Below are positions 4,012 through 5,412 of a DNA stretch of 64,000 bases, in pieces. The translations under genes and the position numbers were made by a program. The notes under the pieces were generated by a model that had not been told where the DNA came from, ran no database searches, and saw nothing but the letters and a program-made list of their open reading frames with translations. The stretch lies in assembly GCA_029289325.1 (NCBI GenBank), contig JARFTV010000004.1:10960-74959 (forward strand), written 5' to 3'. The DNA is from Alphaproteobacteria bacterium (GTDB lineage Bacteria > Pseudomonadota > Alphaproteobacteria > Rhodobacterales > Rhodobacteraceae). Numbering within the stretch: the stretch's first letter is position 1; each line of letters begins with the position of its first letter.

Positions 4012-4320
4012 TCAATCGGTCAGCGTGTAGGTGCCGAGGTCGCACAGGTTCTGCGTATCCTCGACCTCGCCGCCCTCGGCGGTGACAAAGCGCATGTCGT
4101 AGTCGCAGACGTCAAGGCCGTCGGCGATCGTCACCTCGCCCGAAACACCGGGTTCGACCACGTCGAACAGGATGTTCTCGCCCCAAAGAGCGGCATCCAC
4201 TTCGGAGACATACATCTCGACGACAGTTTGCGAGCTGTCGTTGACCAGGGTGAAAACCAGGTCTTCGGCCAGGGTCGGGGTCGCTGCAAGGGTGGCAAGG
4301 GCGGCAAGTACGATACGCAT
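4012..4320 (-). CDS. small secreted protein of unknown function
   Basis: 102 residues with an N-terminal signal peptide (MRIVLAALATLAATPTLAED, cleavage near residue 18). The mature part is acidic and contains FTLVNDSSQTVVEMYVSEVD, WGENIL and two cysteines (VCDYDMRF, LCDLG) that could form a disulfide. The pattern of an Asn-Asp/Ser turn, YVSxVxxxxWGE and a late Cys pair recurs in small periplasmic proteins of Rhodobacterales, but I know no function. A 17-bp palindrome lies just upstream of the start. It ends 67 bases from exonuclease III on the same strand. Confidence 0.75.
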   Translation of the reverse strand: MRIVLAALATLAATPTLAEDLVFTLVNDSSQTVVEMYVSEVDAALWGENILFDVVEPGVSGEVTIADGLDVCDYDMRFVTAEGGEVEDTQNLCDLGTYTLTD

Positions 4321-4436: not shown

Positions 4437-4516
4437 ACAAAAAAAGGCCGGGCAAGAAGCCCGGCCAGGTCCAACAGGGAGGATGCCGCGCCATAACCCC
4501 GACGCGACAAGGGGAA
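4437..4516 (-). ncRNA. candidate small RNA, tandem copy B
   Basis: On the minus strand this holds a block of about 44 bases (CCCCTTGTCGCGTCGGGG ... GGCATCCTCCCTGTTGG) followed by a strong intrinsic terminator: arms GGCCGGGC/GCCCGGCC (4446-4466), 5-base loop, then seven T. A near-identical block lies at 4681-4722. The TCCTCCC motif resembles the anti-Shine-Dalgarno CCUCCUCCC loops of the CcsR/cuckoo sRNAs of Alphaproteobacteria, which also occur as tandem homologous copies. That relationship is inference. No promoter was firmly identified; the copy may be processed from the upstream regulator's transcript. Confidence 0.45.
4446..4466 (-). terminator. intrinsic terminator
   Basis: Perfect 8-bp GC-rich arms with a five-base loop followed on the minus strand by TTTTTTTGTTT. 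It closes the minus-strand transcript that runs from the response regulator through the two repeated RNA-like units. Confidence 0.85.
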
Positions 4517-4521
4517 CCCGT

Positions 4522-4534
4522 TGCACAACCTGTG
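4522..4534. repeat. short inverted repeat between the two RNA-like units
   Basis: GCACAACCTGTGC, arms of five bases around three. It lies in the 120-base spacer between the two RNA-like blocks and could be an operator for a promoter firing copy B. A second palindrome, CAGCATGCTG, lies at 4614-4623. Evidence is only the symmetry. Confidence 0.25.
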
Positions 4535-4637
4535 CATGAAAGAAAGGTAGCAAGCGATTTCGGCAACAATAAGTCCTGGGTCGTAACATTTCGCATCTGT
4601 TGCACGAAGGTCGCAGCATGCTGTTGCGCCCCCGCCA

Positions 4638-4722
4638 CAAAATTACCCGGCGACCCCGTCGGGTTGCGCCGGGCCAGGCCAACAGGGAGGAGCCGCGCCA
4701 TGACCCCGACGCGGCAAGGGGA
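4638..4722 (-). ncRNA. candidate small RNA, tandem copy A
   Basis: The second copy of the block described at 4437-4516, here reading GGCTCCTCCCTGTTGG and containing CTCCTCCC. It is followed on the minus strand by a different hairpin (CCCGGCG ... CGCCGGG, 4646-4673, with inner ACCC/GGGT pairing) and then TAATTTTG. So both copies share the same 5' block and a terminator-like 3' end, but with different stem sequences, which suggests selection on structure. It starts three bases after the stop codon of the response regulator, so it is either its 3' UTR or an RNA processed from it. Confidence 0.45.
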
Positions 4723-4725
4723 GCT

Positions 4726-5412
4726 TCAGGCGACCAGCCGGTAACCTCCGCTTTCGGTGACCAGCAGACGCGCGTTCGAGGGGTCGGGCTCGATCTTCTG
4801 GCGCAGGCGGTAGATGTGGGTCTCCAGCGTGTGGGTCGTGACCCCGGCGTTGTAACCCCAGACCTCATGCAGCAGCACGTCGCGCGGCACCACGCCCGAT
4901 TGTGCGCGGTAGAGGTATTTCAGGATGTTGGTTTCCTTCTCGGTCAGACGGATCTTCTTTTCCTTCTCGTCCACCAGCATCTTCTGCGCCGGCTTGAAGG
5001 TGTAGGGCCCCATCTGGAACACCGCATCCTCGGATTGCTCATGCGTCCGCAGCTGCGCCCGGATGCGGGCCAGCAGGACCGGGAACTTGAACGGCTTGGT
5101 CACATAGTCGTTCGCCCCGGCATCCAGGCCGAGGATCGTATCGCTGTCGGTGTCATGGCCGGTCAGCATCAGGATCGGGCATTTCACGCCCCCCTTGCGC
5201 ATCCGACGGCAAAGCTCGCGACCGTCTGTGTCGGGCAGGCCCACATCGAGGATCACCAGGTCGAAAAGCCCGGCCTTGACCTTCTCCATCCCCTCGGCGC
5301 CGTTGCCGGCTTCGAAGACGTCGAAATCCTCGGTCATCACCAGCTGTTCGCTCAGCGCCTCGCGCAGGTCGTCGTCGTCATCGACAAGCAGGATCTTCCG
5401 CAGTCCGGGCAT
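4726..5412 (-). CDS. OmpR-family response regulator (CenR-like)
   Basis: 228 residues: receiver domain (1-120) with the acidic cluster DDDDD, phospho-acceptor Asp in LVILDVGLPD and KPF switch lysine, then an OmpR/PhoB winged-helix domain (about 130-228) with VSTHTLETHIYRLRQKIE-like DNA-contact helix (TTHTLETHIYRLRQKIEP). The overall sequence resembles CenR, an essential cell-envelope regulator described in Caulobacter and Rhodobacter sphaeroides; this is a judgement from memory. No histidine kinase gene is adjacent. Its 3' UTR holds the two repeated RNA-like units and a strong terminator. Confidence 0.9.
   Translation of the reverse strand: MPGLRKILLVDDDDDLREALSEQLVMTEDFDVFEAGNGAEGMEKVKAGLFDLVILDVGLPDTDGRELCRRMRKGGVKCPILMLTGHDTDSDTILGLDAGANDYVTKPFKFPVLLARIRAQLRTHEQSEDAVFQMGPYTFKPAQKMLVDEKEKKIRLTEKETNILKYLYRAQSGVVPRDVLLHEVWGYNAGVTTHTLETHIYRLRQKIEPDPSNARLLVTESGGYRLVA

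Follow-up and report, generated by a model that had tools for sequence, protein, structure and literature searches.

A tandem of SorX-type small RNAs downstream of a cenR orthologue

Two SorX-type small RNAs lie in tandem behind a cenR orthologue in the window, the 64,000-nucleotide stretch of DNA analysed here; their identity and common ancestry are firm. Each unit, of ∼75–87 nt, would comprise a 5′ hairpin, probably folded into a pseudoknot, a mostly single-stranded seed, CCUCCCUGUUGG, and a Rho-independent terminator. We consider it likely that the copy next to cenR (proximal) is cut from the cenR mRNA, that the second copy (distal) is a transcript of its own, and that the two share one repressing seed. 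The presence of SorX beside cenR is already known; the new parts are the second SorX copy and a possible pseudoknot fold. The features of the locus are as follows.

4726–5412, minus strand: cenR orthologue, OmpR-type response regulator gene upstream of both units (Pfam Response_reg and Trans_reg_C)
4639–4724, minus strand: proximal SorX paralogue (RF02784 44.4 bits, E 1.6e-9 over 4639–4721; R1 model 49.9 bits)
4718–4721, minus strand: proximal CCCC, 5′ strand of the proposed pseudoknot stem, pairable with GGGG at 4704–4707
4692–4715, minus strand: proximal hairpin 1, with GGGG in the loop (fold and pair counts)
4679–4690, minus strand: proximal seed CCUCCCUGUUGG, anti-Shine–Dalgarno type (sequence)
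4638–4674, minus strand: proximal terminator-like hairpin with a weak U tract (fold; absent from the terminator scan list)
4544–4572, minus strand: promoter-like element, TTATTG (4567–4572), 17 nt, TACCTT (4544–4549) (genus conservation)
4522–4536, no strand: palindrome TGCACAGGTTGTGCA near the expected distal start, possible operator (conserved, though somewhat variable, across the genus alignment)
4440–4517, minus strand: distal unit, SorX (RF02784 75.1 bits, E 1.2e-18 over 4440–4514; 83 bits with the R1 model, which includes this copy)
4511–4514, minus strand: distal CCCC, 5′ strand of the proposed pseudoknot stem, pairable with GGGG at 4497–4500
4486–4507, minus strand: distal hairpin 1 (fold and covariation)
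4471–4482, minus strand: distal seed CCUCCCUGUUGG, invariant in 30/30 rows of alignment A1
4439–4466, minus strand: distal intrinsic terminator with U tract (terminator scan and fold)

The ∼44-base block at 4471–4515 recurs in the same orientation at 4679–4722, with a start-to-start distance of 207–208 nt. Repeat comparison aligned the two blocks over 31 nt at 94% and 23 nt at 83% identity; by eye, the differences amount to two substitutions and a single-base indel. Together with the SorX model matches, both on the minus strand, this upholds the observation of an earlier note on this DNA that a near-identical block is present twice. Both units lie downstream of the same-strand response regulator gene, whose product is 91% identical to CenR of the locus that we took as R. 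sphaeroides 2.4.1 (L125). A protein-coding reading of the region, based on a 229-aa minus-strand frame running through it, was set aside; relatives carry indels there, and RNA pairing accounts for the conservation. Beyond the distal unit lies a small open frame (4012–4320, minus strand, 102 aa) that matched no Pfam family.

When the whole window was searched at Rfam gathering scores, the distal copy alone was reported as SorX, its 75.1 bits comparing with a gathering score of 46.6 bits for RF02784. The proximal copy, at 44.4 bits, falls below that score and is therefore termed a SorX paralogue rather than a SorX member. The position of the locus, directly 3′ of a cenR/RSP_0847 orthologue, is that of SorX. 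In R. sphaeroides, SorX, formerly named RSs2461 (PMC5036791), is reported to derive from the 3′ UTR of RSP_0847, with which it is co-transcribed, and to be processed from 116 to 75 nt out of the cenR mRNA; release by RNase E, binding of Hfq and repression of potA have also been reported (PMC5036791 among the sources), and reviews cite SorX as a 3′-UTR-derived sRNA. RSP_0847 is reported to be CenR (PMC9275681), so that the pairing of SorX with an envelope regulator is already known and a link of this kind is not new, contrary to what the earlier note had supposed. The main text of the CenR paper (PMC9275681) does not contain the words SorX, sRNA, small RNA or UTR. Action of CenR on SorX through a TGA-N8-TGA site was considered and set aside as improbable, the same paper placing that site upstream of cenR.

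Conservation behind cenR is widespread. A covariance model was built from 30 SorX copies, and 80 cenR loci were listed from one genome collection in which more matches existed. A SorX-model match (E up to 0.1) was found in 62 of the 80 listed loci, in every one of which at least one match lies no more than 500 nt downstream of cenR and none lies upstream; two of the 18 loci that gave no match (L010 and L021) end within 132 nt past cenR. More than one plus-strand match was present in nine listed loci (L008, L011, L013, L014, L015, L016, L027, L029 and L075), the extra matches in L014 and L029 lying more than 500 nt away. In a family sample of 150 genomes, to which stricter filters were applied, 141 had at least one SorX match and 120 had one above the cut-off, while the sole match among 14 control genomes, in Caulobacter vibrioides, was below it. 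Within the genus of the window, 31 of 32 genomes have a SorX match. A second match on the same strand, starting 197–254 nt closer to cenR than the best one (proximal type), occurs in eight of the 32 (G000, G001, G007, G010, G013, G018, G021 and G026), and in four of these eight the proximal copy is above the Rfam cut-off; a second match ∼100 nt to the far side occurs in three (G023, G025 and G028). The proximal seed lies 39–42 nt after the first base of the cenR stop codon in all six proximal copies measured, that of the window included, a set that leaves out a drifted copy (L106) and an unanchored one (L109). A few distant relatives (L023, L043, L129 and L144) have a single copy in a proximal-like placement. 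The genome of the window also carries three more SorX/SorY-like sites on contigs other than that of cenR (L003, L004 and L005, on C105, C37 and C30), all below the SorX cut-off; L003 scores 55.2 bits against SorY, for which the cut-off is 111.

The RNAalifold consensus comprises hairpin 1 and the terminator. Compensatory change, for which the earlier note had proposed a check, is present, as all pairs of hairpin 1 (7/7) show changes on both sides. When the whole structure is counted, pairing holds in 98.2% of cells, as compared with 26–44% when the structure is slid, part of this excess stemming from the derivation of the structure from the consensus itself. Covariation and conservation across relatives thus support the proposal that these are selected small RNAs rather than a chance duplication.

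SGGG opens the loop of hairpin 1, and CCCS at the 5′ end of the RNA could pair with it across the hairpin. We scored this crossing stem in 95 rows, that is, 102 distinct rows less six that have no clean hairpin 1 and one with a short 3′ strand. The loop is CGGG in 44 rows, 43 of which have CCCG upstream, and GGGG in 47 rows, 40 of which have CCCC upstream; among the seven exceptions to the latter, four have CCCU, a wobble match, and three (L061, L024 and the extra copy of L015) do not fit the crossing stem. Other loops occur in four rows; CCCC is also found in five of the CGGG rows and CCCG in two of the GGGG rows. Most of the evidence for the stem comes from a single pair that alternates between G-C and C-G; on a CenR tree of 100 rows, built quickly and with weak support, the type of this pair changes at least nine times. 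Loops of 1–3, 0 and 4 nt surround a 7-bp stem in 75 of 83 rows, a geometry that suits an H-type pseudoknot. Family-wide covariation at the hairpin and at the crossing CCCS/SGGG stem suggests that the 5′ domain may adopt such a fold.

The proximal copies, taken by themselves (n = 8), retain much of this architecture. In these, 95.6% of cells pair, against 36–46% when slid; hairpin 1 folds in seven of the eight, the crossing complement is retained in all eight (100% of cells pair, two of them as G-U), and in the terminator stems three pairs have changed on both sides with pairing preserved. No pair of the crossing stem has changed on both sides in the eight copies, 24 of 500 shuffles have at least as many doubly changed pairs as this set, and the proximal copy of the window has an unremarkable fold, matched by 27 of 200 shuffles (z −1.00). 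The proximal copy could, then, be a decaying duplicate, now merely the 3′ end of the cenR mRNA with its terminator, so that only the distal SorX acts in trans; this we regard as unlikely, although it is the strongest of the alternatives. It draws on the missed cut-off, on the poor U tract, on the 24 of 32 genus genomes that gave no proximal match, and on drift in relatives: CCUCCCUGUUG is kept in six of the eight proximal copies, is changed internally in two and has lost the G that follows it in a third, the drift in seed or seed flank being that of L086, L101 and L106. A tree built from cenR DNA of the genus and its neighbours (34 rows, L109 left out; 5 of 31 inner branches well supported) requires at least six changes in the presence of the proximal copy, which therefore seems to have been gained or lost repeatedly. 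Against decay stand the retained hairpin 1, the crossing complement and the both-sided changes in the terminator stems.

The two terminators differ in quality. The distal one has a strong stem followed by U7 and is on the terminator scan list, in a scan that returned 2 sites overall where shuffled sequence would give 1.1; the proximal one forms a stem when folded, has the poor U tract UAAUUUU and is not on that list. The earlier note had described each copy as followed by its own, non-homologous terminator-like hairpin. Each copy does have its own, but the proximal copy of one relative (L088) carries a standard SorX terminator and other relatives retain stem bases of the GGCCCGG..CCGGGC type, so that the two look homologous but diverged.

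How the two units might be expressed is suggested by their surroundings. The proximal unit starts within a few bases of the cenR stop codon; this leaves no room for a promoter in between, and the unit is most probably a 3′-UTR product released by cleavage of the cenR mRNA, in the way reported for SorX in R. sphaeroides. For the distal copy, a conserved promoter-like element lying behind the proximal terminator makes separate transcription most likely, possibly with some read-through still reaching it. This element is within one mismatch of TTATTGTTGCC in 26 of 28 cenR-anchored genus loci, has TANNNT at the 17-nt spacing in all 28, and, with up to 3 mismatches allowed, has no second occurrence in the same genome. 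In several other genera, hexamers resembling these and equally spaced were seen by eye just past the cenR stop codon, in a search that also gave loose matches at 3–4 mismatches, which were left uncounted. A strict sigma-70 scan listed no promoter at the distal spacer, the element being far from the sigma-70 consensus, and in R. sphaeroides the element was not found at up to 4 mismatches. We read TTATTG-17-TANNNT as the likely promoter of distal SorX. A conserved TGCAACA element (window 4597–4604) is also present near this site, besides the palindrome TGCACAGGTTGTGCA.

Conserved GCAACA and palindromic elements in the spacer, and the reported co-transcription of R. sphaeroides SorX with RSP_0847, would also suit a locus in which distal SorX lacks its own promoter, one cenR transcript covers both units and the spacer holds a protein-binding site or processing signal. 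This arrangement appears somewhat less probable even than decay of the proximal copy, given the paired hexamers 17 nt apart with TANNNT in 28/28 anchored genus loci, their counterparts by eye at the same spacing in several other genera, and the terminator-like hairpin that separates cenR from the distal copy. With a proximal copy cut from the cenR mRNA and a distal copy transcribed separately, a double input, from the cenR mRNA and from the distal promoter, is likely.

Elsewhere in the family a different sequence recurs at this place. TTGA-N6-TCAA, an FNR-type box, is present in 31 of 108 distinct cenR-to-seed segments, a set that takes in near relatives (Ruegeria or Silicibacter account for seven of the 31). 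The same half sites at spacings of 4, 5, 7 and 8 gave 1, 0, 0 and 1 occurrences, three permuted motifs gave 0 each, and 300 letter shuffles of the segments gave a mean of 0.17 boxes and a maximum of 3. In 25 of the 31 the box precedes a full SorX, and a start 41.5 nt past the box centre would fall 2 or 3 nt before the 5′ CCC in 20 of these 25 and 4–17 nt off in the other five. Class II spacing thus puts the predicted start on the 5′ end of SorX, for example in L119, L116, L118, L120 and L133. In the remaining six the box precedes a short copy that lacks hairpin 1, its centre lying 41–46 nt before the seed, as if transcription began at the seed. Such mini-SorX-like sites, consisting of the seed and terminator-like sequence with no 5′ hairpin and having an FNR-type box centred 41–46 nt before CCTCCC, were noted on the plus strand at L104 1638, L013 2971, L015 2897 and L027 3038, and likewise at L014 4187, L029 3037, L050 2757 and L057 2759. 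FnrL is the putative binder of these boxes in other lineages. The window has no FNR-type box between the cenR stop codon and the distal seed, even with one mismatch allowed. A one-mismatch box, TTGCGTGAGATCAA, spans the cenR stop codon of R. sphaeroides; an FnrL ChIP-seq study of this species is reported to have found a site in the putative RSs2461 promoter region, without pursuing it further there (PMC4263372, 2014). The reported 5′ end of R. sphaeroides pre-SorX lies upstream of the place expected for a −41.5 start, and therefore gives no support for an FNR start in that species.

The seed can cover GGGAG Shine–Dalgarno sites. CAACNGGGAG occurs 2–9 nt before ATG nine times in the genome of the window, as compared with none for the reversed sequence, and six times as against one in R. 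sphaeroides; a search with AACAGGGAG added two further own-genome sites, giving 11 distinct sites overall. Unextended CCAACAGGGAGG, with up to 1 mismatch, gave 21 sites versus 12 reversed. Nine of the 11 own sites were scanned with Pfam (L181 and L182 were left out as doubtful starts), and five of the nine predicted targets are periplasmic binding proteins of the ABC or TRAP type; in R. sphaeroides two of five are, with L190, antisense to SorY itself, left out. Control GGGAG starts, the first 30 listed of 385 matches and from contigs C1–C5 only, gave 4 of 20 after 10 with frames below 100 aa were left out. As 5/9 against 4/20 corresponds to p 0.07, we do not claim enrichment for periplasmic binding proteins. 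One control start (L222, 1174–1503, minus strand, contig C5) matched a type III secretion needle family (PF09392, E 1.1e-10). The same genome has five potA-model matches above the cut-off; at the starts of these potA-like genes duplex energies are within background and no strong seed site is present, and a near-perfect site, CCAACTGGGAG, precedes a solute-binding-protein gene adjoining one of the five. The predicted uptake-gene targets fit the transporter roles reported for SorX and SorY, the enrichment being suggestive only. Both copies would pair through the same seed with GGGAG-type Shine–Dalgarno sites, presumably with Hfq, and so repress translation, chiefly of uptake-transporter genes.

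A wider reading, entirely possible though short of probable, is that SorX is a modular, repeatedly duplicated RNA behind cenR, with a pseudoknot domain and a fixed seed, whose input has been swapped. The input would be the cenR mRNA where SorX abuts the cenR stop codon, a conserved sigma-type promoter in the genus of the window, and in many other lineages an FNR-family class II promoter starting at the 5′ end of SorX or, for mini-SorX, at the seed. The window, with two inputs, would then bring envelope state, via CenR, and a second signal onto one seed. In a literature search whose scope stopped short of the primary 2016 SorX paper, neither a tandem SorX pair nor a pseudoknot in SorX was found, nor any comparative treatment of FNR boxes associated with this RNA.

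Among known systems, CcsR1–4 of R. sphaeroides resemble the window pair in being repeated, 3′-UTR-derived copies, and they carry a CU-rich motif, as the window copies do. In CcsR/cuckoo RNAs CCUCCUCCC lies in hairpin loops; in the window copies CCUCCC sits between hairpin 1 and the terminator, bridged in some folds by weak 2–3 bp pairing. Membership of both units in that family, the kinship proposed in the earlier note on the strength of the CCUCCC-type motif and the repeated copies, is most improbable, given the strong SorX match, an upstream gene that is a response regulator, cenR, and not the reported CcsR host gene ccaF1, and nine Rfam matches (E up to 1 over 601 bases) none of which is named CcsR or cuckoo, in a database that may not contain such a model. 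AbcR1 and AbcR2 of Rhizobiales offer a functional parallel, as tandem sibling alphaproteobacterial sRNAs reportedly linked to ABC-transporter mRNAs (PMC3712013, PMC5461406); their neighbourhood is different and no regional Rfam match (E up to 1) bears their name, so that the likeness is one of analogy only. SorY of R. sphaeroides (RF02651) shares a CCUCCCUGUUGGAC seed with the window copies, its model matches them below threshold (39.3 and 17.5 bits, cut-off 111) and the SorX model in turn gives a sub-threshold match to SorY itself (L173). SorY differs in its 5′ hairpin and in its reported location elsewhere on the chromosome behind its own promoter.

The closest system is SorX of R. sphaeroides, which the window units resemble in sequence, hairpin, seed, terminator and place after cenR/RSP_0847. 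The R. sphaeroides locus has one seed within 1200 nt after cenR and the window has two copies; SorX there is reported as processed from the cenR mRNA, whereas the distal copy of the window lies behind a promoter-like element. If SorX is elsewhere a primary transcript, or is made both ways in one locus, this would afford a direct view of 3′-UTR-derived sRNAs gaining or losing promoters, and the proposed pseudoknot would alter the reading of SorX stability and processing. A precisely placed FNR-type box would tie SorX to oxygen limitation, which fits the FnrL ChIP-seq site reported at the putative promoter region of RSs2461 (PMC4263372).
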